Source: Meiothermus luteus
Lineage (GTDB): Bacteria > Deinococcota > Deinococci > Deinococcales > Thermaceae
DNA: 34,429 nt
Assembly: GCF_003574085.1 (NCBI RefSeq)
Contig: NZ_QWKZ01000021.1
Location: 1 to 34,429 of the forward strand
Direction of reading: 5' to 3'
A program made the position numbers and the translations under genes. This document shows positions 9,803-34,233 of this stretch, one piece after another. The first letter of the stretch is position 1, and every line of letters begins with the position of its first letter. A model generated the notes under the pieces. The model was not told the DNA's origin, ran no database searches, and worked only from the letters and a program-made list of their open reading frames with translations.

Positions 9803-10480
9803 TTACTCCCGGTTGGACATCATAATGGCCACGTAGTGCAGAATGGTGGCCACCGAGTTGGCCAGGGCCGCCACATAGGTCAGGGCCGCCGCCGTCAGCA
9901 CTGCCCGGGCCCCGTCCATCTCGCTGCGGTCCAGGAAGTTCATCTTCTTGAGAATGTTCAAAGCCCGGTTGGAGGCGTCAAATTCAATGGGCAGGGTCAC
10001 AAGTTGGAACAAAGCTGCGGCGGCGAAAAGCCAGATACCAACACTCATCAGGCCAGTAGCCTGCATAAACATGCCGGCTAGGAAGATCCAAGGACCGAAC
10101 ATGCTGCCCAGGTTGGCGATGGGCAGAATGCTATGGCGGACCCTCAACCAGGCGTAGCTCTTGGCGTCCTGGATGGCGTGCCCCACTTCGTGGGCGGCCA
10201 CCGCCAGGGCGGCTGCTGAAGGCGAGTGAAAGTTGGGCTCAGAAAGCCGCACCGCCTTGGCTATGGGGTCGTAGTGGTCGGTCAGGGCCCCGGGCACCAT
10301 CTCCACCCGCACGTGGTGCAGCCCATAGGCATCCAGGATGGCTCGAGCCACCTGCTCGCCCGTCACCCCACGGCTGTTGGCCACTCGGCTGTAGCGGGCG
10401 TAGGTGCGCTGTAACCAAAACTGGATGAACAACGTCGCCACGAAGACCAGAATCATCAGCAAAAAGGTAATCGTCGTCAT
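9803..10480 (-). CDS. Membrane zinc metallopeptidase, YugP family
   Basis: This 225-residue membrane protease belongs to the neutral zinc metallopeptidase family Zn_peptidase_2 (B. subtilis YugP-like). An N-terminal membrane helix, ITFLLMILVFVATLFIQFWL, is followed by the zinc motif HEVGH (H97, E98, H101) in AAHEVGHAIQD. Two or three further hydrophobic segments follow (about 115-165 and near the C-terminus). ATG 10480 is chosen over the upstream ATG at 10498 because AGGAGGGA lies between them, 4 nt before 10480. The physiological substrate is unknown; quality control of membrane proteins is a common suggestion for this family. A terminator closes the transcript. Confidence 0.87.
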   Translation of the reverse strand: MTTITFLLMILVFVATLFIQFWLQRTYARYSRVANSRGVTGEQVARAILDAYGLHHVRVEMVPGALTDHYDPIAKAVRLSEPNFHSPSAAALAVAAHEVGHAIQDAKSYAWLRVRHSILPIANLGSMFGPWIFLAGMFMQATGLMSVGIWLFAAAALFQLVTLPIEFDASNRALNILKKMNFLDRSEMDGARAVLTAAALTYVAALANSVATILHYVAIMMSNRE

Positions 10481-19338: not shown

Positions 19339-22074
19339 CTACCGCCGTATGGGCTCCAGGGCCGCCTCGAGCAAGGCCTTGTCCAGGGTAAGCACCTGCC
19401 CAAACCGCAGGTACACCAAGCGTACTTCGGGCTCCAGGCCCCAGGCCTGCCGCACCGCCTCCAGGTAGAGGCCGAGCTGGAAGTGGTAGCGTTCGGGCTG
19501 TAGCTCGTGGTCGGTTTTGTAGTCCTCCAGGTACCAGCGCCCCCCCACCCGGTAGAGCCGGTCTATCACCCCCTGCCAGACGGTGGTGCCGATGGGCAGG
19601 GCTACCCCAAACTCGGCGTAGTCCTCCTCGCGGGGCCAGGGGAGGGCTTCTCCCAGTAGGGCGTGATACTTAACCAAAAGCTCGCGCACCTCAGCCATGA
19701 TGGCTTCTCGTTCCCCCGGGTCGTAGGGAAACATCACCTCCTGCGCCTCGAGGTTGGCCATCCCAGCGGGGTGGTTGGGGTCCCAGTTCTGCCCTATGGC
19801 GTAGTGCACCAGGGTACCTACAGCCCGGGCCCGGCCTGGAATTTCCTCACCCTCAGCAGGGTCAGGCAACGCCAAGGGCTCGGCCTCCAAGCGCTTGTAA
19901 GCCGAAGGGGAGAAAAGGGGTGGAAAGGGCTCGAGGCCAAACCGCAGCTCTGCCCACGGCGAGGCAGCGGGCGGCTTGGGCGAGGCCGGAGGGGGCTCCA
20001 GCGCGACCTTCTGGAAGGGCCAGGTCCTCAGATGGAAGACGGGCTTGTTGTAGGGCTTGCTGTTGGTCCCTAGCCCCATTGCCTCCAATACCCCAGCCCA
20101 GCCCTCCAGGTTCCGACTTGGATTCACGCTACCGGTGAGCAGCAGAACATCACGGGCCCGCGAGGCCGCCACGTAGAACAGCCGGAGGCTCTCCTCCTCC
20201 TCCAACCTTCTGGCCTGAGCCTTGTACCCCTCGAAGGAAGGGGTTTCGGGCAGGGCCAGGCGCTGCACCAACCGATCCCCTTGAAAATCCTGCTTGCACA
20301 GGTACAAAGGGGCCTCGCGCCGATCCGGGCCCCGCCCCAGGTCAAAAACCGCCACCAAGGGCCACTCGAGGCCCTTCGCGCGGTGCACCGTCAGCACCTG
20401 CACCCCCTCCCCGGACTGGGGCACATCCCCCGCATCGGCTTGACGGGAGAGGTGTTCCAGCCGCTCCAAAAGCCCCTCCAGGCTCACCGGGGGGCGGGGG
20501 GCAAAGTAAAAAAGCAGCGCGTCCACGTTCTCCCGGGCGCGGGGCTCCAGGAAGTCCTGGTAGGCCCTCTCCCCCATCAGGGGGGCCCGGATCAAGAACT
20601 GCAGCGCTTCCAAGGGAGCCCTCTTCCTGATCTCCTCCCCAATCCGAAGAAGCCGGCGGTGTACCGAAGGAAAGAGCTGGCCTAAGGCCTGTAGGGGGTC
20701 GCTGGAGCGCATTACCCCCTCCACCTCCGCTAGGGCAAGGGGCCGCAGCCCGCCCTCCTCAGACTGCCCAAAGGGGCTTCGGAGAAACGCCGCCAAGGAC
20801 AGGCCCCGCGGATCAAGGGCAGCTTTTAGCGCGTGGTAAAGGTCGCGTACCTCCACCCGCTCGTAGTAGCCCCGCCCCTGCAGCAGCACGTAGGGAACCC
20901 CCACAGCCCGAAAGGCTTCCTCGAGGTAAGGGACACTCCCGTAAGCCCGGACCAGCACGGCCATCTGGGAAAAGGGCACCTCGGCCGAAAGGGCCCGCAA
21001 CCGCTCAGCCAGCACCCAGGCCTCGTAAGCCCGAAGCCTCTCCAGCGCCTCCTCCCCCACCACCCAGTGCACCTCCAGCCGCCCCCCCTCATGGCGCACC
21101 CCTTCCACCGGAGGGGCCTCTTCTGGGGTGAAGCCCCGGCCCTCCTCGGCCAGGTGTCGGGTCAGGGAGTTTAGGAAGCGCACCAGAACCTGGCTGTGGC
21201 GGTAGGTTTTTCGCAATGGGGGGAGCTGATCGCCCCTCCGCAGGGCCTGGCGAAACACCTCCACATCGGCGTTGCGAAACGCGTAGATGGACTGCTTGGG
21301 GTCGCCCACAATCTCAACGGCCAGCCCGGCCTTCTGCAGGGCCTCAAAAAAGGCCCCCTGCAACGGATTCACATCCTGATACTCGTCCACCAAGAGGACC
21401 CTTACCCGTTCCCGCACCCGCTTCAAGGCTTCAGGGTGGCGCACCAGCTCTAGGGCTTTCTGCTCGAGTTCCGCCAGCGGCAGAAGCGCCGTTCCCAGCC
21501 TGACCCGATAAGCCGCGTAAACGGTTCTATAGACCTCCAAAAACTCCGCGTTGGCCTCCCCCTCGGCGGGCTCAAAGACCTCGGCCAAGGAACGCCGGCT
21601 AAAGAGGTAGATCAGCGGTTCTTCCCAGGCCTCCAAGTTGCGCCCGTGGAACCGGTGGGCCGGGTCCTGGGCCAGGTAGCACAGGGTCTTCCACTCCTCC
21701 TCAAAAAGGGCTTTGGCTTCCCACTCCCCCAAAACCACAAAGTCCGGGTCAAGGTGCAAAAGGGGCGCGGCCAGCCGAAGGCAGTGGGCCATAAAGCTGT
21801 GGATGGTGCTGAGGATGGCCCCAGGTAGCTCGCGCTGGGCCTCCTCAAAAGCCCAGCGGCTTCCGGGCTCAGGCTCGTAGCCCTGGTGGTGGCCGTTTTG
21901 CAAGACCTCCACGATGGCCGACCCCACCCGTACCCGCAATTCATCGGCAGCCTTGCGGGTAAAGGTCACACCCGCGATACGGCGCAGGGGCGTACCGGAA
22001 GCGATGAGCTCGAGGTAACGACGGACCAGGCTGCTGGTCTTTCCAGTTCCAGCGGAGGCAACGCGGACTTTCAC
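19339..22074 (-). CDS. AddA/RecB-like UvrD-family helicase with C-terminal PD-(D/E)XK nuclease
   Basis: This 911-residue helicase-nuclease resembles AddA, which resects double-strand breaks with AddB. Superfamily 1 motifs run in order: Walker A ASAGTGKTS (K12), TFTRKAADEL, DEYQD (D230-E231), GDPKQSIYAFR, YRHS, VLTVHRAKGLEWP and RLFYVAASRARD. The C-terminal RecB-type nuclease shows H757, D838 in GVIDR and D851-Y-K853 in EDYKTD. GTG 22074 is preferred as start: TTGCCA, 17 bp, TAAGCT, then 8 nt to the GTG gives a leaderless promoter, and MKVRVASAGTGKT fits the usual AddA N-terminus. ATG 22101 is the alternative. No addB is adjacent. Recombinational repair and degradation of foreign DNA are likely roles. 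Confidence 0.88.
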   Translation of the reverse strand: MKVRVASAGTGKTSSLVRRYLELIASGTPLRRIAGVTFTRKAADELRVRVGSAIVEVLQNGHHQGYEPEPGSRWAFEEAQRELPGAILSTIHSFMAHCLRLAAPLLHLDPDFVVLGEWEAKALFEEEWKTLCYLAQDPAHRFHGRNLEAWEEPLIYLFSRRSLAEVFEPAEGEANAEFLEVYRTVYAAYRVRLGTALLPLAELEQKALELVRHPEALKRVRERVRVLLVDEYQDVNPLQGAFFEALQKAGLAVEIVGDPKQSIYAFRNADVEVFRQALRRGDQLPPLRKTYRHSQVLVRFLNSLTRHLAEEGRGFTPEEAPPVEGVRHEGGRLEVHWVVGEEALERLRAYEAWVLAERLRALSAEVPFSQMAVLVRAYGSVPYLEEAFRAVGVPYVLLQGRGYYERVEVRDLYHALKAALDPRGLSLAAFLRSPFGQSEEGGLRPLALAEVEGVMRSSDPLQALGQLFPSVHRRLLRIGEEIRKRAPLEALQFLIRAPLMGERAYQDFLEPRARENVDALLFYFAPRPPVSLEGLLERLEHLSRQADAGDVPQSGEGVQVLTVHRAKGLEWPLVAVFDLGRGPDRREAPLYLCKQDFQGDRLVQRLALPETPSFEGYKAQARRLEEEESLRLFYVAASRARDVLLLTGSVNPSRNLEGWAGVLEAMGLGTNSKPYNKPVFHLRTWPFQKVALEPPPASPKPPAASPWAELRFGLEPFPPLFSPSAYKRLEAEPLALPDPAEGEEIPGRARAVGTLVHYAIGQNWDPNHPAGMANLEAQEVMFPYDPGEREAIMAEVRELLVKYHALLGEALPWPREEDYAEFGVALPIGTTVWQGVIDRLYRVGGRWYLEDYKTDHELQPERYHFQLGLYLEAVRQAWGLEPEVRLVYLRFGQVLTLDKALLEAALEPIRR

Positions 22075-22082
22075 CAATGTAG

Positions 22083-22133
22083 AGCTTACAAGCCCCATCA
22101 TGGCTTGGCAAAGCCCGAGAAAGCCGGTATAAC
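22083..22133. promoter_or_regulatory. Divergent promoters with overlapping -35 boxes (addA-like gene / aminotransferase)
   Basis: Plus strand: TTGGCA (22105-22110), 17 bp, TATAAC (22128-22133), serving the aminotransferase. Minus strand: TTGCCA (22111-22106), 17 bp, TAAGCT (22088-22083), serving the addA-like gene. The two -35 boxes share five base pairs, so two RNA polymerases cannot bind at once and the promoters should compete. Spacings are read directly; exclusivity is inferred. Confidence 0.7.
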
Positions 22134-22148: not shown

Positions 22149-23015
22149 GTGAAGTACGCTTACATTAACGGGACCATCCTGGAACACGCCCAGGCTACCC
22201 TGCACATCTCCGACCTAGGGCTCCGGCGGGGCTACGCTGTTTTTGAGTTCTTGCGCGTTCTGGAGGGAATCCCGGTCTTCCTAGAGGACCACCTAGACCG
22301 CTTTGCCCGCTCGGCAGCGCTCCTAGAGCTAGAACCCCCGCATGGCCCGGAGGAGCTGGCCCGGGTGGTGCTCGAGCTCATAGGCCGCAACCAGATTTCC
22401 GAAGGGGGCATCCAGATGCTCCTCACCGGGGGTTACTCGGAGGACGCCTTCACCCCTGGACGGCCCAACCTCATCATCACGCCCATCCCCGTCAATCCAC
22501 CTCCCCCCCAGCTCTATGAAAAGGGTGGGAAAATCATCCTCCACCAGAACCGGCGCGAGCTGCCCGAGGCCAAGACCACCGACTATTTGGTGGCGGTGCG
22601 GCTTGCCAAACGGGCGCGGGCCGAAGGGGCCACCGAAGTGGTCTACCACGATGGCCGCTGGGTGTTCGAGGGAGGCCGCAGCAGCTTGCTGCTGGTCAAA
22701 AACGGCGTGCTGGTCACCGCCAAAGAGGAAGTGCTGCCCGGCATTACCCGCAAACACCTCTTGGAAGTGGCCCGCCCTCTACTGCCCATAGAAGAGCGGC
22801 CCTTCACCTTAGAGGAGCTCTACTACGCCGACGAGGTCATCCTGACCGGGGCCACCCGGCAGGTTATGCCCATCACCCAAATTGAAGACCGGCCGGTGGG
22901 CAACGGCCAGGTAGGGCCCTGGGCCAAGGTCCTGATGGAGGCCTTTCAAAGGCACCTCGGGGCCTACCTAAGCCAGCGCAGGGCCAATGCTGTCCACAAG
23001 GCCTCGCCGCACTAG
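22149..23015 (+). CDS. Class IV (branched-chain/D-amino acid/lyase type) PLP aminotransferase
   Basis: This 288-residue fold-type IV PLP enzyme belongs to the family that includes branched-chain aminotransferase, D-amino acid aminotransferase and aminodeoxychorismate lyase. The N-terminal pattern INGTILEHAQATLHISDLGLRRGYAVFEFLR is split across strands typical of the family. The PLP lysine is K142 in PEAKTTDYL and the conserved glutamate is E174 in VFEGGRSSLLLV. TGATRQVMPI near residue 237 is the phosphate-binding block. The substrate cannot be assigned from sequence. GTG 22149 is chosen because GGAGGG lies just upstream and the promoter fits. It is divergent from the addA-like gene and is the last clear core gene before the accessory region. 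Confidence 0.85.
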   Translation: MKYAYINGTILEHAQATLHISDLGLRRGYAVFEFLRVLEGIPVFLEDHLDRFARSAALLELEPPHGPEELARVVLELIGRNQISEGGIQMLLTGGYSEDAFTPGRPNLIITPIPVNPPPPQLYEKGGKIILHQNRRELPEAKTTDYLVAVRLAKRARAEGATEVVYHDGRWVFEGGRSSLLLVKNGVLVTAKEEVLPGITRKHLLEVARPLLPIEERPFTLEELYYADEVILTGATRQVMPITQIEDRPVGNGQVGPWAKVLMEAFQRHLGAYLSQRRANAVHKASPH

Positions 23016-23785
23016 TTTACGGGGCTTTCGCTGCACACCCATGGTGGTTGCGCATCTAAACCCGCCTGACCCAGCCCCACTCGGCGCGAACCCCCTTTGC
23101 CCCTTGAAGAAAATATCGAGCTCTGCGGGAAGCGCCGGCTGCCTCAGCAGGCAACCCCCTAGGGGATTTTAGGCACCCCTCTTCGCACAACACGTTGTCT
23201 GGCAAGACTGAGCAGATAGGATGCGCCCCCACTGCGTACCAGACAGGCCTAAGGATGCATATGGACACATCTGAAGGCGAAAAGGTAAGGTTTTCCCGCT
23301 CGAGGCCCTTTACCTCCGTGGTTCCGGGAAACGCCTCCCACGCTGCCTCGCCCAACCCGCTAAGCGGGGGATAAGCCGGGTGATAAAGCCCACTGCCAGC
23401 CTGGCGAGCCAGTAAACCTGGGCTATCGTCTCCCCGGATTGCCCTGAACCACCTGCATCGGCAAGGCTCGAGGCCAGCCCGGATGGCCGGGATAGACATG
23501 GAGGTTCACTCAACCCAGAGCAAGGGGCGACGAATCCAGGAGAGGATCTCGTCAAGAGGCCGCCCATTTCCAAAGAAGAACCAGCAGGCTACTGGGAAGT
23601 TCCGTATCGGGTAGCCCACACCCCGAACTGTTGCGCGCTGTGGTGGCTCGAGCAGCCACGAGAATGGGCCTTTTTATGGTCTGGATTGAGGGGAAGGACC
23701 TGAGAGCGCTGTTTTTACGTCGGCTTGGTTTATTTGCACCAGCGGACGAGTCGTGGGGTGCTAAAAAATTCCAAGGGAGACCAGA
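23016..23785. other. 770-bp region with no convincing gene; GC-rich stems
   Basis: I find no plus-strand gene here. The minus strand has two overlapping open frames (about 23056-23499 and 23310-23573) without ribosome binding sites or recognisable domains. Several short stems are visible, including CCCGC-TAA-GCGGG (23356-23368) and GTGGCT-CGAGC-AGCCAC (23643-23659). The region separates the aminotransferase from the accessory operon and could hold its promoter, a structured RNA, or a degraded element. Nothing in it matches a known RNA family that I can recognise. Confidence 0.5.
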
Positions 23786-24055
23786 ATGCCTATCAAGTAC
23801 AACCCATTCACCCAGCGCTACGAGTACGCTGAGGAAGACCAGGAGCCCGTGTACAACGAGTACGAAGGGAACTATGAGCTTGGCGAGCCAAACGAAATCA
23901 GCCACTCTCCCTACACGGGCCGCTACAGCAAGAAGGGTAGTCGACTGGTAGACAAGTGGAATCCCTATACAAGCCGCTACGAGCAGGTGCCGGAGGACTG
24001 GGAAATTCAATTCAACCCCTTCACCGGTAAGTACGAGTTCGGGCCCAAGGAATGA
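23786..24055 (+). CDS. Small repeat protein with NPFTG(K/R)YE motifs, first gene of the accessory operon
   Basis: This 89-residue acidic, tyrosine-rich protein is of unknown family. It is built of about five degenerate repeats of 16-20 residues with consensus N-P-(F/Y)-T-x-(R/K)-Y-E: NPFTQRYEYA, NEYEGNYELG, SPYTGRYSKK, NPYTSRYEQV and NPFTGKYEFG. Each repeat ends in a charged segment. No signal peptide, membrane segment or cysteine is present. GGGAG lies 6 nt before the ATG. The stop overlaps the helicase start as ATGA, so translation of the two is coupled and the protein may be a partner or regulator of the helicase. The repeat may form a small all-beta binding surface; that is a guess. Confidence 0.72.
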   Translation: MPIKYNPFTQRYEYAEEDQEPVYNEYEGNYELGEPNEISHSPYTGRYSKKGSRLVDKWNPYTSRYEQVPEDWEIQFNPFTGKYEFGPKE

Positions 24056-27000
24056 GTGAGGGAAGGATGCTTGAAGGTGGACATCTGCCGAGCGCCCTAG
24101 GCGACTGGGTGGTCCTGGACCTCGAGGCCACCTCCCCAGACCCAAAGAAGGCCGAGATTCTGGAAATTGCTGCCCAGGACGCAGAGGGTAGGTTCTTTCA
24201 CCGCTTTGTATCCACCGAGGAGCCGCTCGAGGTCGACCACGAGGCTTTCCGGTTTACTGGCATCGCCTTTGACGAGTACGAGCGGGAGAAAGTGCCGCCG
24301 GAGAGGGCCCTCAAGGAACTGCAGAACTTCGTTGGGGGTCGTTTGCTCATCGGTCACAACCTGCTGCGCTACGACCTGCCCCTTTTGAACCGGAGCCTGG
24401 AAAAAACCGGCCTTCCTACCTACAGGGGCGCGGCCCTGGACACCTTGCGCCTGGCCCAGCTGGTCTTCCCCACCCCACCCGAAGGGCTTTCCGGTTACCG
24501 GCTGGGCGATCTCCACCGATACCTTACCGGTGAGGAGTTAACCAGCGCCCACCGGGCCGGGGCCGACGTGGAGGCTACCTGGAGGGTTTTGGCAGGACTG
24601 ATGCTGCAAAAATTGCCGGATGGGGTGGCTCGAGCCTGGAAAGAACTGGGTCTTGTGGAGGGCACCCTGTTTCCCAGCACCTCAGGCCAGGCTCAGGTTA
24701 AGGATTTGTTGGCCACGCCCGCCCGAGTGGAGAGGGTTTGCTACGAGGGCTGGCCCTTACCCCATCCTTCGGCGCTGGGTGCCGACCTGCTGCCCACCCG
24801 CCGGGAAGCCCAGGAGCAGATGTTCCAGGCGGTGGAGGGGGCTTTACGGGAAGGGCAAAAGCTGCTCCTGGAAGCCCCTACCGGCACCGGCAAGACCAAG
24901 GGCTACCTCTACCCTGCTTTGCACAGCGGGAAGAGAACCTGGGTGGCCACCCACACTAAGGTGCTCCAGGCCCAAGCTCTGCAGGAGCTTAAGGGGGTGG
25001 GCGAGAAGGGCTACGAGGTCAAAGCAGCCCTGGTCAAGAGCCCCCGCGACACCCTCTGCCCCGAGGCTCTCCTCGAGCTCTTCTTGGAAGCCAGGAAGGA
25101 AGAGGACGAAGAGCTGCGGGCTACGGTGGGGCTCTTGTTGCACTACGCGGCCCTAGGAGGGCATGACCTCGAGGCCCTCCCTGGCTACTGGCACTATTCC
25201 AGAGGCTTCCGTGAGGCGAGGGAGCGAGTAGGCACCAATCCCCTCCGCTGTCGTGCTGACTGCCCCTTTTTTCATAGCTGCGCCTTTCAAAAGCAGCTTG
25301 GTCGGCGTAAGGACGCCCAGATTCTGGTAACCAACCAGGCCTACCTCCTGGCCAATTTTTTGCGGCAAGAAAAAGACAAAGAAGAAACCGCAGAGGAAGT
25401 CTATCTGGTGCTGGACGAAGCCCATCACCTCGAGGACGTCGCCACCGAAGCCCTCACTTTGGCGCTGGACCATGAGGAGTTCACCCACCGGCTCAACCAC
25501 CTGGCCCACCCCAGCAAAAACCGCGGTCTTCTCAAGGATGATGAGCGGTTAAAGGACCTCTCGGAGGAAGAGCGGAGCAAGGTCAAGGAGGTGGTAGATC
25601 AGCTCCTCCCCAGGTTGCGCGATGCGTTGCAAAACTACTCCCTTTACTTGGTCAAGCTCATCAAAAACCGTGCCTCCGGGGATCCCCGCTACAGCCTGAC
25701 CCTGGGGCTCAGTGAACGCTGGAAGCAGTTTGAGGAGTGGCCCTACATCAACCGGGAAGAGGGGGTGCTGATTGAAGCGCTAAAGAAGCTAAAGGAGGCA
25801 CTCAAGGAGATCCGCAATGACCGCCTAGTCCGCGATCTCGAGCCCATCCGAGAGTACCTGCAAGAGGCGCTGGATCTCCTCTTCGAGCGCCGCCGAGCTC
25901 TGGGGCTTGCGTCGGAGGAGGCCGACCCCAACCTGCTTCATCTCTCGGAGTGGGATCCCCTAACGGATAGCTGGCGTCACCTGGCCCAGCCCATAGACGT
26001 CGCGCAGGCCCTTAAGGAGGGGCTATGGCCCCGCTTTAAGGGCGTCATCCTTACCAGCGCCACCTTGAGCGTGCCTACCGAGAAAGATGCGGAGGGCTTC
26101 GGTCATATCAAGCGTCTTTTGGGTCTTGAAGAAGCCAGACACCGGCGGCTGCCCCCCTCCCTTCCCTACGACAAAGCCCACCTGCTGGTGCCGCGCCACC
26201 TCCCGGAGGCCCGTGAGAGCACCTTGTCCCGCTTCCAGCGCATGCTTCACGAAGAGCTGAGGGAAATCTTACCCAAAGCCCACCGCAGCCTTTCCCTCTT
26301 CACCAGCCTCGTGCGCCTGGAGGACGCCAAGAACGCCCTGAGGGATCACCCTCACCTCCTGGCCCCCCTCACCCGCAAGGAGCGGGAAGACATAGCCAGC
26401 CACATCAAGCAGAACCCCGAGGCTCCGGTTGCCGCTTTGGGATCGCGAAGCTATATGGAAGGGGTGGACTTCCCGGCTTTGAAGCTGGTGAACCTGGAAC
26501 GCATCCCCTTTCCCTTGCCCTCGCTGCTTCTGAGCAGGCGTATGGAGCGGGCCTACGAGCAGGGATTGGATAAGTGGTGGGACTACTACTTACCCAAGGC
26601 CGCCCTCTCCTTTGCCCAGGCCTTTGGTCGGTTGATCCGCGACCGGCGTGAGCGGGTAGGGGACGGGGCCTTTGTGCTCTGGGACAAGAAGCTACTCAAT
26701 GCCGCCTACCAGGAGGCTTTCTATCGCGCCTTGCCGCCGGGCGTTCATCGGCACTTCCCCGAGAATAGGAAGAGCCTTTACGACCGGCTCGCGGAGATTT
26801 TGGGAATTGACCGAGCCCAGTTCCCCCAGGGCGAGCTGGAAGACGAAGCCCTGCGCCAGCTCAAGGAGATCCTGCGATCGGACCTCGAGCCTCTGGGAAA
26901 AGCCCGCCGCATCGCGGAAAAAGTCTTCGAGCTGGAGGTGGATGAGGAGCGCTGGCGCAAACAGGCCGAGGCCATCCAGGCTGCTTTAGACGGCCAGAAC

Positions 27001-29082
27001 CTGGTGGCCTTGCTGCCCACCGGCCTCGGCAAGAGCCTGGCCTTCCAGATTCCCGCCCTTATGCAGGAGGGCCTGACCTTGGTGATCTCACCCCTGGTAG
27101 CCCTGATGAAGGACCAGGCCGACCGCCTCCTGGAACTGGGCTTGCCGGTGGGTGCGGTGCACTCGCTGATGGGATCGGGGGAGCAGAGGAGTGTGCTGGA
27201 TGAGGTCAGGGCGGGTCGGGTACAGCTTCTTTACGTGAGCCCCGAGCGGGTCAACCGGAGCGGCGACTTGTGGAGGCTGATCCAAGATGAGCACGCCAGG
27301 GGCAGGCTCCGGCGGGTGGTCTTTGATGAGGCCCACTGCTTGGTGGAGTGGGGCTTCGACTTCCGACCGGACTACCTCAAAGCCCTGGAGAAGCTGGAGG
27401 CCCTGGAGGGGGTCCCCAAGAGCTTCTTCACCGCCACCCTGACCCCGAAGGATCTGGAGCGGTTGAAGAAGGCCGCCAAACTGGAAGCCTTCCAGCGGAT
27501 CAAGCCCGAGAGCTTCCACCGCCCCAACCTCCGCTTCGTGGTGAGGAAGGCGCAGGGGGAAGTGGGCAAGTTCCAGGTCCTGGCCAAAGCCCTTCATTGG
27601 CTCACGGAGTATGGGGAGGGAGGCAGCGCCATCGTTTACACCGCCACCCGCGCCGAGGCCGAGCGGCTGGCCTGGGCCCTGGGCCGCCTTTTCCCCAACC
27701 TGGAGGTCGAGGCCTACCATGCTGGGCTGGGCCCGGTTCCCCGCCGTGAGGCCCAGGAGCGCTTCACCTCCGGCGAGACCCGGGTCATGGTGGCCACCAC
27801 CGCCTTCGGCATGGGCATCGATAAGGCGAACATCCGCCTGGTGGTCCACTGGCGGCCACCGCGCAGCCTGGAGGAGTACATTCAGCAGTCTGGACGCGCG
27901 GGGCGGGACGGAAAAGAGGCTTACTGCCTGCTCCTGCATACCAGGTCGGACTGGGGCTTTCTGGAGTGGATGGTGGGGGTGGGCCACGGTGGGCAAGCCT
28001 ATGGGGAGTTCGCCCGGCGGCTCATCCGCCTCTTGGAGAATAAAGGGACTCTTGTTGGCTACCGCCAAGAGATTTACCGGGAAATCTACGAAGAGCCCGA
28101 TGAAGGAGAGGTGGAGGAAGACCTGTCCGAGGAGGACGAAGAGGAGGAAGAGGCTGCCGCACCCCCTCGGCGGGAAGTGGGTCTGGAGAATCTCGAGCGC
28201 ACCCTCTCCGGCCTCGAGCGCGCTGGAATTCTGGAATATGACTTTCCGCTGGGCAAGGCCCTCCTGCTGGAGTCTAGGGACGTCTTAAGAGAGCACCTGA
28301 CGCAGGAAGCCCTAGCCACGCTTTACAAGGCCGGTTACAAGGGTAGCGAGCGAGGGGACGAGCTGGACTTCTCCCGCATTTCCCCGGGGGAAGCCCTGGA
28401 GCTGGATCGGAAGCTTTATCAGCTCTTCCGGGAGCGGAAAATCCACCTCTACCACTACCGAGAGCCCCTGCTCCGCATTCAGGTGGGCGGTCGTCCGAAG
28501 GACGGCTACTTTGACTGGCACGAGGAGCAGGAAAAGTTAAGGACTCAGTCCAAGGAGCGCCTTAGCAGGGTGCAGGCTTACGCCGAAAACGGGCGGTGCC
28601 GCGCTCAGGTCCTCCTCAAGCACCTGGGGGAGTCCCCAGGTAGCTGCGGGGTCTGTGACATCTGCACCAAGGATGCTGGTCCCTGGGAAGCTTTAGAGGG
28701 GCTGGAGACGGAGGAGCTTGAGAGGGCCTACCGTCCCCTGGATACGTTGCTGGCCTTCTTCGCCTGGGCTGAGGAAAACGCCTGGCCAAAGGAAGGGCGG
28801 TACATGTACTTGGGTAAGACCAGCACCCTGATGGCCCTTAGGGGCAGGGATAGGGGCCAAAGCGGATCGCTAAGCCGTAAATACACAGACAATCGCTTCT
28901 TTGGGCACCTGTCTTTCTTCAAGCCAAAGGAGCTGGAGCGTGCGTTTGATGCCGCGCTCAGGGAGCGGTACCTTGAGGAGAAAGACCGATACGACGGTGT
29001 ACCGCTCTACGGACTTACCGAGCGGGGCCGCGCTCGCCACGGGCGCAGGCTGAAGCGGGAGGTGGCGGATGTTGGAGCCTGA
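24052..29082 (+). CDS. DEDDh exonuclease-DinG helicase-RecQ helicase triple fusion
   Basis: This 1676-residue protein joins three DNA enzymes. (1) DEDDh 3'-5' exonuclease, about 15-185: D23, E25, D108, H167 and D172. (2) XPD/DinG-type 5'-3' helicase, about 235-930: Walker A K281; cluster cysteines C336, C400, C404, C410; DEAH D455-H458; SATLS near 668; QAFGRLIR near 860. (3) RecQ helicase, about 955-1540: Walker A K994; DEAH D1092-H1095; QQSGRAGRDG near 1280; zinc cysteines C1516, C1532, C1535, C1538. An acidic linker (about 1344-1370) interrupts the RecQ part, and no HRDC domain is evident. All key residues look intact. It probably unwinds DNA with both polarities and trims ends. Cytoplasmic; coupled to genes on both sides. 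Confidence 0.93.
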   Translation: MSEGRMLEGGHLPSALGDWVVLDLEATSPDPKKAEILEIAAQDAEGRFFHRFVSTEEPLEVDHEAFRFTGIAFDEYEREKVPPERALKELQNFVGGRLLIGHNLLRYDLPLLNRSLEKTGLPTYRGAALDTLRLAQLVFPTPPEGLSGYRLGDLHRYLTGEELTSAHRAGADVEATWRVLAGLMLQKLPDGVARAWKELGLVEGTLFPSTSGQAQVKDLLATPARVERVCYEGWPLPHPSALGADLLPTRREAQEQMFQAVEGALREGQKLLLEAPTGTGKTKGYLYPALHSGKRTWVATHTKVLQAQALQELKGVGEKGYEVKAALVKSPRDTLCPEALLELFLEARKEEDEELRATVGLLLHYAALGGHDLEALPGYWHYSRGFREARERVGTNPLRCRADCPFFHSCAFQKQLGRRKDAQILVTNQAYLLANFLRQEKDKEETAEEVYLVLDEAHHLEDVATEALTLALDHEEFTHRLNHLAHPSKNRGLLKDDERLKDLSEEERSKVKEVVDQLLPRLRDALQNYSLYLVKLIKNRASGDPRYSLTLGLSERWKQFEEWPYINREEGVLIEALKKLKEALKEIRNDRLVRDLEPIREYLQEALDLLFERRRALGLASEEADPNLLHLSEWDPLTDSWRHLAQPIDVAQALKEGLWPRFKGVILTSATLSVPTEKDAEGFGHIKRLLGLEEARHRRLPPSLPYDKAHLLVPRHLPEARESTLSRFQRMLHEELREILPKAHRSLSLFTSLVRLEDAKNALRDHPHLLAPLTRKEREDIASHIKQNPEAPVAALGSRSYMEGVDFPALKLVNLERIPFPLPSLLLSRRMERAYEQGLDKWWDYYLPKAALSFAQAFGRLIRDRRERVGDGAFVLWDKKLLNAAYQEAFYRALPPGVHRHFPENRKSLYDRLAEILGIDRAQFPQGELEDEALRQLKEILRSDLEPLGKARRIAEKVFELEVDEERWRKQAEAIQAALDGQNLVALLPTGLGKSLAFQIPALMQEGLTLVISPLVALMKDQADRLLELGLPVGAVHSLMGSGEQRSVLDEVRAGRVQLLYVSPERVNRSGDLWRLIQDEHARGRLRRVVFDEAHCLVEWGFDFRPDYLKALEKLEALEGVPKSFFTATLTPKDLERLKKAAKLEAFQRIKPESFHRPNLRFVVRKAQGEVGKFQVLAKALHWLTEYGEGGSAIVYTATRAEAERLAWALGRLFPNLEVEAYHAGLGPVPRREAQERFTSGETRVMVATTAFGMGIDKANIRLVVHWRPPRSLEEYIQQSGRAGRDGKEAYCLLLHTRSDWGFLEWMVGVGHGGQAYGEFARRLIRLLENKGTLVGYRQEIYREIYEEPDEGEVEEDLSEEDEEEEEAAAPPRREVGLENLERTLSGLERAGILEYDFPLGKALLLESRDVLREHLTQEALATLYKAGYKGSERGDELDFSRISPGEALELDRKLYQLFRERKIHLYHYREPLLRIQVGGRPKDGYFDWHEEQEKLRTQSKERLSRVQAYAENGRCRAQVLLKHLGESPGSCGVCDICTKDAGPWEALEGLETEELERAYRPLDTLLAFFAWAEENAWPKEGRYMYLGKTSTLMALRGRDRGQSGSLSRKYTDNRFFGHLSFFKPKELERAFDAALRERYLEEKDRYDGVPLYGLTERGRARHGRRLKREVADVGA

Positions 29083-30052
29083 GGAGACCCTGGAGAAGGT
29101 GGTGAGAAAGGCTCTCGGCCTTCCAGCTGAGGCCAAGGGTTCCGTGGCCTCCCTGAAAAAGACTCTGGAGTCCCTTCCCTTAAGCCGCGAGGAACTGCTT
29201 GCCGCTCCTGTGAGCGTGGCCAAGCCAGCAGCAGGGGGTTCAACCCAAGAAACGGGTGCTGGTGAGGTGGCTTTGGAGCTTCCATCGGCAGAACTTACCG
29301 AGGAGCCGATGGCGCCAGTGGCCGAGGATCAAAGCCTGTTGCGCAGACTGCGGGAGTGCGAAAAGAAGTTTCAGAAAAAGGCCGATGAAGCCGAAAAGCT
29401 CAGGATCAGGCTGGAAAGGGAACAAAAGGCCGGGCAGGAAGCCGAGCGCGTCAAGGGAAGGGCCCTGGAGGAAGCGGCGCACTTGCGTAAAGACCTCAAG
29501 CGTCTTGGGGAGGAACTCGAGCAGCTCGGAAGGGAGCTCGAAAATCTACGCAAAGAGAATGCCGCTCTGCAGGAAGAAAAAAAGGGGTTGCAAGGGCGGC
29601 TTCGGGAGTACGAGGAGCAAGAGGGCGCTCTCGAGGCCAGGGTACGTGAACTGGAAGCCATCCAGGTGCAAAAGGAGCACCTCGAGGCCCAACTCGCCCA
29701 GCTCAACCGCTTCAAGGAAGCCCTTCCCGAGCCCTTTCCGCCGGAGGCCCTGTTTCGCGTTTTGGTGCTGGACTACCCCAGCTTCGGAGATAAGGCAGAA
29801 GAGCGGGTGATCGCCCTTATCGAGGGATACCAGGCCCTCCTCAAGGGGGAGAACCACCCCGCCCTCTACCACAGCAACCGTGAGCTGCTCCTGGGCGAAC
29901 CAGAGGGGATGGTGCTTGTGGGGCTGGAGCAGCTACTGCTTGATCTGGCCAACCTTCCCCTTGCGCGTTGGCTGAGAACCCATGCCTTTCGCTTAGAGAC
30001 CCTGCTTCAGCAAGGAGAGTGCCTTGTTTCGCCCCGATTGGTGGAGGAGTGA
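29069..30052 (+). CDS. Coiled-coil protein of unknown family (accessory operon gene 3)
   Basis: This 327-residue protein has three parts. A short N-terminal helical region (about 1-50) carries EETLEKVVRKALGL and a flexible segment. A long charged coiled coil (about 90-215) is rich in E, K, R, L and Q with heptad spacing, for example LGEELEQLGRELENLRKEN. A C-terminal domain (about 216-327) contains RVLVLDYPSFGDKAEERVIA and LEQLLLDLANLPLARWLRTH. I recognise no family or catalytic motif. Its start lies inside the helicase gene (14-bp overlap) after a GGAGGTGGC ribosome binding site. It is likely a structural or tethering subunit of a complex with the helicase. Confidence 0.82.
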   Translation: MLEPEETLEKVVRKALGLPAEAKGSVASLKKTLESLPLSREELLAAPVSVAKPAAGGSTQETGAGEVALELPSAELTEEPMAPVAEDQSLLRRLRECEKKFQKKADEAEKLRIRLEREQKAGQEAERVKGRALEEAAHLRKDLKRLGEELEQLGRELENLRKENAALQEEKKGLQGRLREYEEQEGALEARVRELEAIQVQKEHLEAQLAQLNRFKEALPEPFPPEALFRVLVLDYPSFGDKAEERVIALIEGYQALLKGENHPALYHSNRELLLGEPEGMVLVGLEQLLLDLANLPLARWLRTHAFRLETLLQQGECLVSPRLVEE

Positions 30053-30606
30053 TGGACTGCAGCGAGATACAGAAGCAGTTTGAGCAGAAATGGTTGGAGG
30101 ACAAGCGGCGCTGGGAAGAGGAGAAGAGGGAACTGAAAGAACTCCTGGAAAAAAAGGACGAGGAAATCACAAAGCTGAAGAGAGAGCTTACGGAACAGGG
30201 GAACCAAATCCGCGAGCAATGCAGGCGTGAGCTAGAAGCCCTGCGAGCTACCCTCGAAGGGATGCGAGAAGCCCATAGTGGGTGTGAACAAACCCTGTTA
30301 CATACCCAAAACCAGCTGGGGCAAACCCAAAAGCGGCTGGAGGCGCTCTCGCAACCTCCGTTAGGGGAGGGTTTTTTTCGCTACCTGGGAGAGCAAATCA
30401 AGCTTTGGGATCAGACCCTGATCGAAGAAGCCTCCCAGTTGCATGGGAACAAGCTAGAGTCCTAGTTCAAAGCGATCTGGGCTGAGCGGGAAGAGACCCT
30501 ATCCCAGGCTCTCGGCGGCGCAGCGGTGGACTGGCGCCGGGTGCGCACCGGCCTGGTACTGGAGTGGGCCCTTCTGGCCTGGCTGGAGGGGGTGCGGGAT
30601 GGCTGA
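30052..30606 (+). pseudogene. Second coiled-coil gene, interrupted by one in-frame TAG
   Basis: The gene starts at ATG 30052, overlapping the previous stop (TGATG) after GGAGG. It encodes a highly charged coiled coil for about 110 residues, then LGEGFFRYLGEQIKLWDQTL. TAG at 30463-30465 stops it at 137 residues. The same frame then stays open for 46 codons (FKAIWAEREETLSQALGG..., ending AWLEGVRDG) to TGA 30604-30606, which overlaps the next gene's ATG by 8 nt. That coupling and the helix-like continuation indicate a former 184-codon gene. The TAG may be a real nonsense mutation, a sequencing error or a readthrough site. If read as it stands, a 137-aa protein is made and coupling to the next gene is lost. 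Confidence 0.75.
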
Positions 30607-32134
30607 TCTGTGGCTGCACGCGCTGAACCTGGACAGGGCGGTGGAACAAGGAGGGGTAGCCCAAGCTCGTGTGGCCCAGGAGGATTTCGAGGGGGTAAAG
30701 CCCCTCATGCGCCAGGTGTGGCGGGGCGAGCGGTGGGAGAATCTGCTGACACCTATCTGCTCTCAGGATCGGGAGCTGATTCCTGCTCGAGTCCTCCTCG
30801 GCTACCTGCGGGGCTATTTCCTCTACCGGGAGGTGCCGGAGAACGACCAGGCCTTCTGGCCAAATTTCTTGAAAGACCTGGGGATCGAGGGACGCCAGCT
30901 CCCCACGCCAGGTGAGTACGACCGCCTTTGGGAAGCTTTGCAGGGGCACCTCGAGACCAGACCTCACCTCAGGACGCACCAGGGCGGCAAGCGGGATTTC
31001 ATCGGCAGCCTGGACGCGATCTTCCACTTCAAAGCCCTGCGCCTCAAGGCGCTCAAGGATTCCTTCCTGACCTTTTATCAGACCGGGGAGCTTCCCGTGG
31101 CGGCCCATCCCTACGAGCGGGTGTTCCGCAGGCTCCGGGAAGCAATGGAAGTTCTGCTGGAGGAAGATGACCAGGCGCCGGATTTATGCAATGAAGGAGC
31201 GGTGCTTGAGTTCCTCGAGCAAAGCGGCATCTACCTAGGGGAGCCCAACCCCGTGCGGCTGCTCTTCAACCGCTCCGGCCAGGCCCTGGAAGACCTTTAT
31301 CGGAAGCTTAAGGGAGAGAAGTCGCCCTCCAGGAGCACCGGCGCCCGTTTCCGACACAAGCAGGTGAGGATCGAATGCCTGAAATCCTCTCCGGGGCTTG
31401 AGGAGATCCGGCCCGCGCTCAGCCGAGAGCCGATACTGGAGGGTTGGAAGGTTTACGGTAAGGTAACGTTGGAAGACGGGCGCTTCAAGCGCTTTTCCTG
31501 GGTACCGCGGCTTACGCCAGAGGGAGAGCCCATTCCCGAGGAGCTCGAGGTTTCCTTTGAGGAAGGGGAAGCTATACGATTCCGCCTGCATCACAAAGCT
31601 TTTGCCGTGCGCTTCTCCCACTCGCCGTGGAGGTTTGACGAGCCCCTGGAAGTGCGCCCTATCGGGTTTGACCTGGTTCAACATCCCCTACGCTTCCTAC
31701 TTGCTTCCAAAGGAGAAGCGAAGCATTCTCCGGAGGAACTCGCATCAGAGGTTACAGAGGCCTCTATACCCGAAGATGAAGTTGTCGTTGAGATCAGGGT
31801 CGATGGTCGGGGAGACGAATGGCGGAGGATAGCGGTCTTGCCCGTAGAGGTGAGGCCACGCCTAGAGCATTGGGCGTCGCCTAAAGGGGTTTTTGTCCGC
31901 ACCCACCCCCCGGGCCTCGAGGTGCGGGCTCGAGTCTTCTTTGGGGAGCGCCTCGTCAAAGAGGAAACCCTAACCACCGAACCCGAGGGCCGTTTGGTGG
32001 CGCAGGCAGCACAGGTGCCTTTGCGAATCGAGGTGTGCCTGTTTACCGAAACCCGGTCTTTTACCCTGGCGCCGGTGGGGTGGCCTGAGAGATGGTGGCG
32101 GCAGGGCTTGGGCCTGGGTGGTTCGTTGGTCTGA
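30599..32134 (+). CDS. 511-residue protein of unknown family (accessory operon gene 5)
   Basis: I do not recognise this family. The N-terminal half (about 1-240) is mainly helical, with ARVLLGYLRGYFLYREVPEN and FHFKALRLKALKDSFLTFYQ. The second half is strand-rich (about 270-500), with YGKVTLEDGRFKRFSWVPRL, VVVEIRVDGRGDEW and a final LRIEVCLFTETRSFTLAPVG, which could be one or two beta-sandwich domains. No Walker, nuclease or protease motif stands out and there is no signal peptide. GGAGGGG precedes the ATG, which overlaps the end of the ancestral reading frame of the preceding gene by 8 nt. Its place in the operon suggests a role with the helicase fusion, perhaps as an assembly or recognition subunit. 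Confidence 0.8.
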   Translation: MADLWLHALNLDRAVEQGGVAQARVAQEDFEGVKPLMRQVWRGERWENLLTPICSQDRELIPARVLLGYLRGYFLYREVPENDQAFWPNFLKDLGIEGRQLPTPGEYDRLWEALQGHLETRPHLRTHQGGKRDFIGSLDAIFHFKALRLKALKDSFLTFYQTGELPVAAHPYERVFRRLREAMEVLLEEDDQAPDLCNEGAVLEFLEQSGIYLGEPNPVRLLFNRSGQALEDLYRKLKGEKSPSRSTGARFRHKQVRIECLKSSPGLEEIRPALSREPILEGWKVYGKVTLEDGRFKRFSWVPRLTPEGEPIPEELEVSFEEGEAIRFRLHHKAFAVRFSHSPWRFDEPLEVRPIGFDLVQHPLRFLLASKGEAKHSPEELASEVTEASIPEDEVVVEIRVDGRGDEWRRIAVLPVEVRPRLEHWASPKGVFVRTHPPGLEVRARVFFGERLVKEETLTTEPEGRLVAQAAQVPLRIEVCLFTETRSFTLAPVGWPERWWRQGLGLGGSLV

Positions 32135-32137
32135 GCG

Positions 32138-32323
32138 ATGGCCGGTTTTGAGGGCTTTGGGATCCGTGGAATTCTCAGACGCCGTGGTGGCAGGGTCAAA
32201 CTCCGCAGCGGGTTGAGCCGCACTACGTGGGTAAGCCTTCACCCTTTTCCAAGAGGCCCTGCTCTAAGCCCAGGGGTGGAGTTACCGCTACTGGAGAAGG
32301 TGGAAGAGCACCTGGCGAAGTGA
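32138..32323 (+). CDS. Small basic ORF, possible last gene of the accessory operon
   Basis: This is a 61-residue ORF whose ATG lies 3 nt after the preceding stop. It is basic at the N-terminus (RGILRRRGGRVKLRSGLSR) and ends in an amphipathic helix, LPLLEKVEEHLAK. No family is recognised and no good ribosome binding site is present, but the close spacing would allow re-initiation. It may be a real small protein, or the truncated start of a longer gene whose remainder has been lost, as the sequence after it is degraded. Confidence 0.45.
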   Translation: MAGFEGFGIRGILRRRGGRVKLRSGLSRTTWVSLHPFPRGPALSPGVELPLLEKVEEHLAK

Positions 32324-32433
32324 GATCGCGGTGAAACCGATGTGGGCCTGTGGGCACAATGCCTCCCCTGCCAGAGGCAAGGAAGTTGCCCTGCTACTGC
32401 CTAAATCAAGGCAAAGCGGACCTCAAGGCGGGC

Positions 32434-32635
32434 CTACCCAGCCTCGAGGAAGCGAAGCGTCACCTCCGCGTCCAGAGGGAGGGGCTTGACCAGCAGCACC
32501 AGGGCGCTCAATCCAATCTCGGGGAGAAAGCCCCCTGCCCTTCAGGCTTTTCCACCAGCCCCCGGCCCTTCATAGCCCTGCTGCATCAAATAAGTCCAGC
32601 CCCAGCCGATCACCCTTTGCCTCCACATTTGACAT
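32434..32635 (-). pseudogene. Possible frameshifted gene remnant, minus strand
   Basis: Three short minus-strand frames follow one another with protein-like composition. The first is ATG 32635 to TGA 32570 (MSNVEAKGDRLGLDLFDAAG). The second overlaps it from ATG 32573 to TGA 32508 (MKGRGLVEKPEGQGAF...). The third ends at TAG 32434 (IGLSALVLLVKPLPLDAEV, then TLRFLEAG). Joined by two frameshifts they read as one continuous 65-residue protein tail. Each is too short to stand alone. The family is unknown. It sits between the accessory operon and the phage-like genes, where decay is expected. This is an inference from reading-frame quality only. Confidence 0.35.
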
Positions 32636-32795
32636 CCTCAAGAAGCGGCCCGAGCGGTGGGACGACTGGCCCGGGCACGACCGAACCCGGTTGCTGGAAC
32701 ACTACACGGATCCCTGGGCTTTCCTGCAGAAGCAGGCCCAGGTGGGCCGGATAGCCTGGCCCAAACGCTGGGAGGTTGACGCGAATGTCGCGTGA
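32628..32795 (+). pseudogene. 5'-truncated ORF of the phage-like segment
   Basis: From about 32628 the plus strand reads as convincing coding sequence with no start codon: FDILKKRPERWDDWPGHD, then TRLLEHYTDPWAFLQKQAQV and GRIAWPKRWEVDANVA before TGA 32793-32795. Upstream in the same frame there is no ATG, GTG or TTG and the composition loses its protein-like character. The stop overlaps the next gene's start by 11 nt, as genes do in compact phage operons. It looks like the C-terminal fragment of a phage gene cut at the edge of the element. The family is not recognised. Confidence 0.5.
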
Positions 32796-32967
32796 GCTGT
32801 TTCCGCTGGCTGTGCTGGCTGGGGGCCTCTACCTGGGTTTGGGGCGGCTCAAAAACCTGCGCGACGGCCAGGGCTGCCCCAAGTGCGAAAGCCTGCAAGC
32901 CCTGGTGGCTTTCGGCCTGGCCGCATGGGCGGGGTGGGAGCTGTGGCAAGCCTATGGCCAGAAATAA
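32785..32967 (+). CDS. Small protein with two predicted membrane helices and a CPKC motif
   Basis: This 60-residue protein has a first hydrophobic helix at about 6-21 (FPLAVLAGGLYLGLG), a short loop with G-C-P-K-C, and a second at about 40-57 (LQALVAFGLAAWAGWELWQA). The CxxC pair could bind metal or form a disulphide. GGGAGGTTG lies upstream of the ATG. It overlaps both neighbours, consistent with a compact phage or plasmid operon. The small size and membrane character suit a phage membrane or virion protein, but the function is unknown. Confidence 0.65.
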   Translation: MSRELFPLAVLAGGLYLGLGRLKNLRDGQGCPKCESLQALVAFGLAAWAGWELWQAYGQK

Positions 32968-33145
32968 CAAACAGATTCGCAAAAGAATAGCGGGGATAGC
33001 AGATCAAGTATCCATCCACCAAAACAAAATCAAGCAAGAAATGAAAAAAGCCTTTCCCGATCTCAAACTTGTGGCAAAATGGAAAAGGGAGATTCGCACA
33101 TGGCAACAAGAGCTGGCCCGGCTGAAAAAACGACTGAAGGGTTGA
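32954..33145 (+). CDS. Small basic helical protein
   Basis: This 63-residue, strongly basic protein is rich in lysine, arginine, asparagine and glutamine (MARNNKQIRKRIAGIADQ..., ending LARLKKRLKG). It probably forms one or two long helices and could bind nucleic acid. Its DNA is clearly richer in A than the surrounding genome, especially 32960-33090, which hints at foreign origin. The start lies inside the previous gene and the stop overlaps the next start (TGATG at 33143-33147). No family is recognised. Confidence 0.6.
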   Translation: MARNNKQIRKRIAGIADQVSIHQNKIKQEMKKAFPDLKLVAKWKREIRTWQQELARLKKRLKG

Positions 33146-33327
33146 TGGATATTCCGCCGGCCTATTGGGAAGAGCTGTTGGAAGAGATGGAAACTTTCAA
33201 AGCCCTTTACCGCAAAGCTAAAACCCTTCCCCCAGAAAAGCGCGAGAAGGTACAACAAGCGCTGCTGACCAGCCTGATTCACCTTTTAGGGCACTTGCGG
33301 GTAATTTACGATGAAGCCGAAGTCTGA
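33145..33327 (+). CDS. Small acidic helical protein
   Basis: This is a 60-residue acidic protein (MDIPPAYWEELLEEMETF..., ending HLRVIYDEAEV) that is mostly helical. ATG 33145 is chosen because it overlaps the previous stop as TGATG, the same coupling used by the next gene. In-frame ATGs at 33079 and 33100 would give 82 or 75 residues and cannot be excluded; the one at 33100 has GGGAG upstream. The function is unknown. It directly precedes the ATPase gene, whose start overlaps its stop. Confidence 0.6.
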   Translation: MDIPPAYWEELLEEMETFKALYRKAKTLPPEKREKVQQALLTSLIHLLGHLRVIYDEAEV

Positions 33328-33995
33328 TGGCCGGTAGACAAACCTTCCGCATCCTCATCGTGGGCAAGTCGGGTTCGGGGAAGAGCACCCTGGCCCGACA
33401 AATCATCCGCCGCATGGAGGGGCGCTACCGCCACCTGGTCATCGTCAACCGCAAGCGCGAGTTCGCCGAGCTGGCCGAGGGGCGCTACACCGTGCGCGAG
33501 GACGGCGACCCCACCCCCGCCCTGCGGCAACATCGCCGGGTGATCTTCCAGGTCACCGGCTACGACCCCCGGCCCTTCCTAGACAACCTGGGCCAGGCCA
33601 TCATGGGTTTGCGGGATGTGCTCTTGGTGGTGGATGAGGCCCACCACTTCTTCCCCCGGGGCCAGACCCCCAAGGGTCTTTTCGAGGTGCTGACCGGGGG
33701 CCGTGAATATGGACACTCGGCCATCTTCATCACCCAGATGCTCCAGGGGGCCACGGGAGGCATCGAGCCCGGCGTGCGCCGCCAAGCCAGCCACCTAATC
33801 ACCTTTCGGGTTACCGAGCCCCGCGAGGTGCAGGCGGTAGCTGATATGTTCCCCGAGCTGGGGGAAGGGGTGCGGGCCCTGGCCCGGCCCGAGGAGGGCC
33901 TGCCGCCGGAGTACGGCATCAAAGACTTAGACCGGGATGTTGCCGGGGTGGTCAAACGGGCCCAGCAAGGCCGGGTGTTCGTGCGGCTGGGTTAG
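33327..33995 (+). CDS. HerA/FtsK-type P-loop ATPase, probable phage DNA-packaging ATPase
   Basis: This 222-residue single-domain ATPase has Walker A GKSGSGKS (G13-S20, K19), Walker B LLVVDEAH (D103, E104), a sensor-like GHSAIFITQ ending at Q137, and a possible arginine finger in PGVRRQASHLITFRV. The small size and motif spacing fit the HerA/FtsK clade, which includes the genome-packaging ATPases of tailless membrane-containing phages. Such phages (P23-77, IN93) infect Thermus, and a related provirus has been reported in Meiothermus. The run of tiny overlapping genes upstream fits that setting. A cellular HerA-like or plasmid-transfer ATPase is the alternative. The packaging role is inferred. 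Confidence 0.78.
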   Translation: MAGRQTFRILIVGKSGSGKSTLARQIIRRMEGRYRHLVIVNRKREFAELAEGRYTVREDGDPTPALRQHRRVIFQVTGYDPRPFLDNLGQAIMGLRDVLLVVDEAHHFFPRGQTPKGLFEVLTGGREYGHSAIFITQMLQGATGGIEPGVRRQASHLITFRVTEPREVQAVADMFPELGEGVRALARPEEGLPPEYGIKDLDRDVAGVVKRAQQGRVFVRLG

Positions 33996-34013
33996 CCGTC
34001 TGGCTTGGCCTTG

Positions 34014-34066
34014 ATTTTCTGCCAAAAGCCTTTCAGCCTGAGCGCAGGAGGCATATGGCAGAAAAT
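34014..34066. repeat. 11-bp perfect inverted repeat around a ribosome binding site and start codon
   Basis: ATTTTCTGCCA (34014-34024) and TGGCAGAAAAT (34056-34066) are exact reverse complements, 31 nt apart. The spacer contains AGGAGG (34046-34051), and the right arm starts within ATG 34055. As RNA this would tie up the start codon while leaving the ribosome binding site in the loop. As DNA it could be a binding site for an integrase accessory factor or repressor near the tRNA. Confidence 0.6.
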
Positions 34067-34222
34067 ACGCAAGCCAACGACATGCGTAAGCTGGCCAGCG
34101 CCACGAACCCGCTGCAGGTGGTGCAGAATCGGTTTCGTAGTTTTTCCGTCCTAGTGCTGGCGCGCCCGGGAGGATTCGAACCCCCGACCTACCGCTTAGA
34201 AGGCGGCTGCTCTATCCGCTGA
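34055..34222 (+). pseudogene. Small ORF running into the tRNA-Arg gene (truncated element gene)
   Basis: AGGAGG with 3-nt spacing precedes an ATG opening MAENTQANDMRKLASATNPL, then QVVQNRFRSFSVLVLA. From about 34158 the frame is only the antisense of the tRNA (ARPGGFEPPTYRLEGG...), ending at TGA 34220-34222. A strong ribosome binding site leading into a tRNA gene suggests that a mobile-element gene was cut when the element integrated at the tRNA 3' end. In the excised form the gene would continue differently. The true protein is unknown. Confidence 0.5.
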
Positions 34223-34233
34223 GCTACGGGCGC
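34158..34233 (-). tRNA. tRNA-Arg (anticodon TCT)
   Basis: Read on the minus strand the cloverleaf is complete: acceptor GCGCCCG/CGGGCGC (7 bp perfect), D arm GCTC/GAGC, anticodon stem GCCGC/GCGGT with loop CTTCTAA giving anticodon TCT for AGA codons, variable loop AGGTC, and T arm GGGGG-TTCGAAT-CCTCC. Discriminator G and an encoded CCA follow (34161-34158). Its 3' end faces the phage-like genes, the usual polarity for integration at a tRNA. Confidence 0.96.

Follow-up and report, generated by a model that had tools for sequence, protein, structure and literature searches.

Which of the genes around a large exonuclease-helicase fusion of Meiothermus luteus belong together, and what might they do in common? 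The window, i.e. the whole stretch of DNA analysed here (34,429 nt of contig NZ_QWKZ01000021.1), had been assigned in a preliminary description a six-gene operon, regarded as a candidate for an undescribed defence or repair system. Four of these six genes, called g2 to g5 here, form a module which is real, conserved and mobile. The outer two do not belong to it: the NPFTG-repeat gene at the 5' side is part of a separate TROVE-YbjN cassette, and the 61-aa reading frame at the 3' side is not conserved. Of the components of the module, the fusion was known before, and g3, g4 and g5 are without relatives.

The fusion gene g2

The gene g2 (24052-29082, forward strand) codes for a protein of 1676 aa. 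The combination of exonuclease, DinG and RecQ recognized earlier is borne out, together with its coordinates, by Pfam, PADLOC and NCBIfam domains: a DEDDh exonuclease (Pfam RNase_T, residues 20-179) is followed by a DinG-type helicase with FeS cluster (250-900), a RecQ helicase (970-1300) and a RecQ Zn domain (1491-1539). The reading frame is intact in the window, and its dN/dS is 0.19. The protein carries the D-x-E and H-x4-D motifs, Walker A, DEAH and four Cys, as do most of its homologues. In an alignment of 18 fusions the exonuclease motifs, both Walker A boxes, the DEAH box of the DinG part and the cysteines of the FeS and Zn sites are kept in nearly all. The RecQ core scores above the curated cut-off (TIGR00614, 314.7 bits vs 219.8), and so does the Zn-binding domain (RecQ_Zn_bind, 38.2 bits vs 25). 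The protein stays below the level of orthology to the housekeeping RecQ (TIGR01389, 335 vs 640) and below the full-length DinG/ExoDinG models (TIGR01407, dinG_rel, 254.6 bits vs 547.7; PRK08074, 276 vs 789).

The partner genes

Downstream of the fusion and on the same strand follow g3 (29069-30052; 327 aa, coiled coil, conserved in 15 genomes), a second coiled-coil gene, g4 (30049-30465), and the 511-aa orphan g5 (30599-32134). All four core genes are under purifying selection. Tight junctions had been proposed throughout, and they are found upstream of g4: g2 and g3 overlap by 14 nt, g3 and g4 by 4 nt, and 4 nt are also shared by g2 and the NPFTG gene g1 before it. The junction of g4 and g5 is different. 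As had been noticed, one of the two coiled-coil genes is broken, g4 being ended early by an in-frame stop at 30463-30465, and therefore a gap of 133 nt remains before g5 in the window. In most relatives an intact, longer g4 shares 8 nt with g5, and a programmed frameshift between the two genes was rejected for this reason. Constraint still seems to act on the 44 codons past the stop (dN/dS 0.27, compared with genome G028), therefore the break is either recent or an assembly error. The stop probably impairs the operon copy of the window.

For g3, the AF2 model (mean pLDDT 74.6) consists of a coiled-coil helix of 135 residues and a small alpha/beta C-terminal domain, and a fold search gave no PDB match. 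The g5 model (mean pLDDT 82.4) has a helical N-terminal domain followed by an Ig-like beta-sandwich region at the C-terminus; its pTM is only 0.48, so the arrangement of the domains is unsure. Since the fold search with g5 returned only generic Ig-like matches with TM values of 0.1-0.2, no specific structural homologue is claimed. Its designation as an orphan stands, as no match was found in Pfam, NCBIfam, PADLOC, PHROGs or PDB sequences. Ig-like beta-sandwiches also occur in PglZ and DndH, where they were proposed to bind the DNA backbone or foreign proteins (PMC12839542), a parallel that may give a hint for g5. Compared with the systems of PADLOC 2023, g5 has no match and g3 and g4 show coiled-coil similarity only. 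The weak matches of g3 and g4 are to the coiled-coil parts of Wadjet JetC and Lamassu LmuB, from which they differ by the lack of an ATPase head, and the likeness is thus one of coiled-coil composition only.

Neighbouring genes outside the core

The NPFTG-repeat gene g1 (23786-24055, forward strand) adjoins the operon only in the window and in genomes G023 and G008. Elsewhere it is found in genomes or at places without the operon, where it shares a cassette with genes for YbjN and, in many cases, for TROVE/Ro60 and a WYL regulator. It travels with the YbjN and TROVE genes, and its role as a dedicated partner of the operon was therefore rejected. The TROVE(Ro60/vWA)-YbjN-NPFTG cassette recurs in Thermaceae (loci L142, L143, L145, L146, L147 and L148), in some cases with the WYL regulator. 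Of this cassette only the NPFTG gene and a YbjN remnant are left at 23619-24055 of the window. The remnant (23619-23753, forward strand, upstream of g1) is by tblastn 53% identical, across 45 aa, to its intact counterpart in L072; the assignment to YbjN is by Pfam, on the homologue in L143. Bacterial Ro60 may have the NPFTG protein as a partner. Upstream of the operon of G023 (L072, 16818-20000) a TROVE/Ro60 gene has an RNase II gene as its neighbour, which recalls pairs of Ro60 and exonucleases. The 61-aa reading frame at the other end (32138-32323, forward strand) has no counterpart in related loci and is unlikely to be one of the system's genes.

Distribution and co-inheritance

A profile of g5 matched in 18 of 111 Deinococcota genomes, in 15 of them at full length. 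Exactly these 15 genomes gave strong matches to the g3 profile, and in all of them the fusion adjoins g3 and g5, although the contig of G028 ends within it. This agrees with the expectation that the partners co-occur. The core g2-g3-g4-g5 has a common order and overlapping junctions in the 15 genomes and likewise in 21 plasmid records from Thermaceae. Within the Thermaceae clade the divergence of the genes matches closely (r=0.98 for g2 vs g5 and r=0.95 for g2 vs g3; Mantel test, 0 of 2000).

Among plasmid records, g5 is present in 21, all of them from Thermaceae, and the fusion, to an extent of at least 80%, in 21 as well. One of these replicons is pTT27 of Thermus thermophilus HB27, on which the operon is present at full length (TT_RS10755-10770); the fusion protein of HB27 is 56% identical to that of the window over 98% of its length. 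No homologue of g5 was found in phage records and IMG/VR.

A diverged DEDDh-DinG-RecQ fusion is located on plasmid unnamed2 of Deinococcus actinosclerus (L112, 12198-33876), together with a different partner of 886 aa without known family, and may represent a second architecture. Next to it lie genes for a helicase that resembles GajB/UvrD and for a kinase-like defence protein, as well as a weak match to ZorB.

Genomic location, transfer and decay

In the window the operon is part of an accessory island of about 11.1 kb (23012-34152, no strand assigned) between a branched-chain aminotransferase-like gene (22149-23015) on its left and a tRNA-Arg (TCT) gene (34158-34233, reverse strand) as its border on the other side. 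The closest relative, G011, lacks the island with the operon. There the match to the aminotransferase extends to 9826 and the tRNA-Arg match begins at 9867, with nothing in between, so that an interval of about 40 bp faces one of 11.1 kb in the window. This interval is an insertion site. A direct repeat of the tRNA end was not found at the left island edge; in the absence of a tRNA-type attachment repeat, site-specific integration is not claimed. Directly beside the tRNA gene lies a virus remnant of the IN93/P23-77 type (matsushitavirus; 32776-33995, forward strand). It comprises the packaging ATPase region, with 80% identity to ORF11 of Thermus virus IN93, holds also a small phrog_32686 gene and is syntenic with that virus.

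In a phylogenetic tree the operon copies of the window and of Thermus brockianus are sisters with a support of 100/100, and a single Meiothermus clade was rejected (p-AU 1e-77). The operon is thus mobile and patchy and has been transferred horizontally between genera, to differing sites. Decay is frequent as well. In G012 (L069, 10674-12819) g3 is interrupted by some 2.2 kb of inserted DNA, in which transposase-like genes lie on the opposite strand, in T. thermophilus SG0.5JP17-16 the fusion is split, the N-terminus is disrupted in the copy of G072, and G008, G009 and G018 hold fragments. Mobility and frequent decay together are the behaviour of an accessory system and not of a core repair locus. 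A universal, syntenic core locus in the Thermaceae had been named as the contrary expectation, with which the presence in 15 of 111 genomes at differing sites does not agree.

Genomic surroundings

Known immune genes are found next to several copies: DISARM drmA and drmB with a type I restriction-modification system in G037, Csm5 (CRISPR III-A) in G039, Cas1c (CRISPR I-C) in G020, HmaC in G035 and G036, and PglZ beside the truncated copy of G008. In HB27 the operon is located between cmr (III-B) genes and I-C cas genes. A WYL regulator and a vWA/Tubulin_2/BrxL cluster adjoin the operon in G019, and related clusters are present in G023 and G009. At the loci concerned (L070, 12230-19999; L072, 299-4975; L085) genes for the WYL regulator, a vWA protein, a Tubulin_2 protein, a 677-aa protein and BrxL adjoin the operon. 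For the vWA, Tubulin_2 and 677-aa products PADLOC gave no match, and these three may constitute a BREX-like system of their own.

As controls we used matched regions of the same replicons. At E<=1e-25 the operon flanks (87 proteins) matched 81 PADLOC families, compared with 12 for 101 control proteins, numbers that come from few loci and include one control region with a pAgo gene. Defence neighbours were present at about 5-6 of nine operon loci vs 1-2 of nine controls, a small sample. The defence-rich context therefore appears real but is statistically modest. Proximity to defence genes is also partly expected, since many copies reside on megaplasmids that hold CRISPR and Ago genes too.

Among the genes examined in the flanks of G010, G064, T. 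aquaticus and T. brockianus, no known defence system was found, and upstream of the operon of T. aquaticus there is only a toxin-antitoxin pair. On plasmid pTbrSNM4-1b of T. brockianus (L111, 7939-12915) genes for a LexA-like S24 repressor and for ImuB-like and DnaE-type polymerases are divergent from the operon; this LexA-ImuB-DnaE2 set is a typical SOS mutagenesis cassette. The HB27 operon is near a topoisomerase fragment, which is described as a decayed reverse gyrase in an earlier account (PMC1274311).

Comparison with known proteins and systems

A three-domain fusion DnaQ-DinG-RecQ (REC_DNA) of HB27 pTT27 was already reported by Omelchenko et al. in 2005 (PMC1274311). As far as the accessible text of that paper goes, it is treated there as a single protein in the context of thermophily and repair, and as unique to HB27 in comparison with HB8, which was reported without the DinG and RecQ parts. 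The fusion itself is hence not undescribed. For the operon, by contrast, our literature search yielded no paper that names the system or its locus tags or describes its gene arrangement, and measured against the accessible text of 2005 the partner genes, the wider distribution, the mobility and the other defence neighbours are new here. A review on DinG does not mention a RecQ fusion. In a comparative paper (PMC5529391), HB27 and T. oshimai, both of them carriers of the operon, are credited with "DinG" and type IV CRISPR, and the entry for HB27 is probably this fusion gene. In a Tn-seq study, recQ of pTT27 was classified as "Highly Permissive" and "shell" (PMC13140390); this gene appears to be the fusion, which would then be dispensable for growth.

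The DEDDh-DinG arrangement and the active-site motifs of g2 are those of ExoDinG from Staphylococcus aureus and Bacillus subtilis (PMC12345164, PMC11981726), which is a single protein without a RecQ half. The S. aureus enzyme, SaDinG, combines a 3'-5' exonuclease with a 5'-3' helicase and is needed for crosslink resistance (PMC12345164). CasDinG (Csf4) of type IV-A CRISPR systems is likewise a DinG-type helicase near cas genes, but g2 is fused to an exonuclease and RecQ and has unrelated partners. The identity of its DinG half with CasDinG was rejected (TIGR03117, 54.6 bits vs a curated cut-off of 400). No csf1-csf3 genes were found among the open reading frames of the window or the top families listed for the flanks, and no CRISPR array among the repeats within the window. 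The best PADLOC match of the RecQ half is DpdF of the 7-deazaguanine DNA system (Dpd), with which it shares the generic helicase core only; this candidate was rejected as well (NF041063, 192.4 bits vs a curated cut-off of 550).

RecBCD and AddAB combine two motors and a nuclease in one machine, which can destroy linear foreign DNA, and the motors of RecBCD have opposite polarity. The likeness of g2 to these enzymes would be one of functional analogy, in that two motors of opposite polarity are predicted to act with a nuclease; in g2, all three are on one chain. By Pfam, g2 consists of SF2 DEAD/DinG/RecQ and RNase_T domains only, without an SF1 UvrD-type motor or a PD-(D/E)XK nuclease. The host of the window encodes a UvrD/PD-(D/E)XK protein of its own at 19339-22101.

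Possible function

RecQ helicases move 3'-5'. The fusion may be a single-chain bipolar helicase-nuclease. Its RecQ part would track one strand 3'->5' and its DinG part the opposite strand 5'->3'; with these polarities, both motors could drive in the same direction along the duplex, as in RecBCD. Degradation of the 3'-ended strand would fall to the DEDDh domain. For the products of g3, g4 and g5, two coiled-coil proteins and a helical/Ig-like one, a dedicated complex is envisaged which would recruit or gate the enzyme and might, for instance, sense ends of DNA, branched intermediates of replication or a protein of the invader.

Taking the evidence together, we consider it rather probable that g2-g3-g4-g5 is a mobile module that defends Thermaceae against invading DNA of phages or plasmids. 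A more specific version, to which we subscribe only tentatively, is an unnamed immune system of Deinococcota, distinct from the catalogued ones, in which a RecBCD-like single-chain enzyme is gated by a complex of the g3-g4-g5 type. That HB27, with its full-length operon, is highly transformable is a point against defence.

The main rival, which we regard as unlikely, is an accessory machine for DNA repair or recombination on megaplasmids and islands, e.g. for interstrand crosslinks or damaged forks, with the partners as loaders. It can draw on the need for ExoDinG, which has the same two N-terminal domains, in the crosslink resistance of S. aureus, on RecQ as a family of repair helicases, on the SOS mutagenesis cassette of T. 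brockianus and on the putative reverse gyrase remnant of HB27. Such a cassette is clear at the locus of that one species only, however, and immune genes adjoin the operon more often than repair genes do. The restriction to 15 of 111 genomes, the repeated decay and the variation within one species, between HB27 and HB8 according to PMC1274311, also argue against repair.

Quite improbable is a role in the maintenance, transfer or competition of megaplasmids or integrating elements, that is, in their stability, the exclusion of rival plasmids or the processing of DNA in transjugation. The 21 plasmid records from Thermaceae would fit, as would ParA/ParB-like genes near the operon in G012 and G028, ParB in T. 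brockianus and the virus remnant at the tRNA gene of the window. But the operon is also found in G039, a complete genome in a single contig, as well as on large contigs. Its surroundings show no recurrent relaxase or transfer genes, every plasmid that carries it is typed as non-mobilizable, and phage records and IMG/VR lack it; excluding rival plasmids would moreover be a form of defence in itself. That unlinked genes became adjacent by chance in a variable region is true of g1 and the 61-aa reading frame and hardly conceivable for the core, whose constant order in 15 of 15 genomes, with overlaps and proportional divergence across genera, excludes it.

If the module acts in defence, as we favour, a single chain that unites an exonuclease with two opposed motors and has three orphan partners would be a new solution to this task, and it would explain a fusion that was noted in 2005 and later listed as a type IV CRISPR DinG or as plain RecQ. 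HB27 is a genetically tractable model thermophile with a full-length copy between its III-B and I-C genes, and HB8 was reported without the DinG and RecQ parts, so the function can be tested at once. For transformation and genome engineering in Thermus, a defence function would be of consequence as well.
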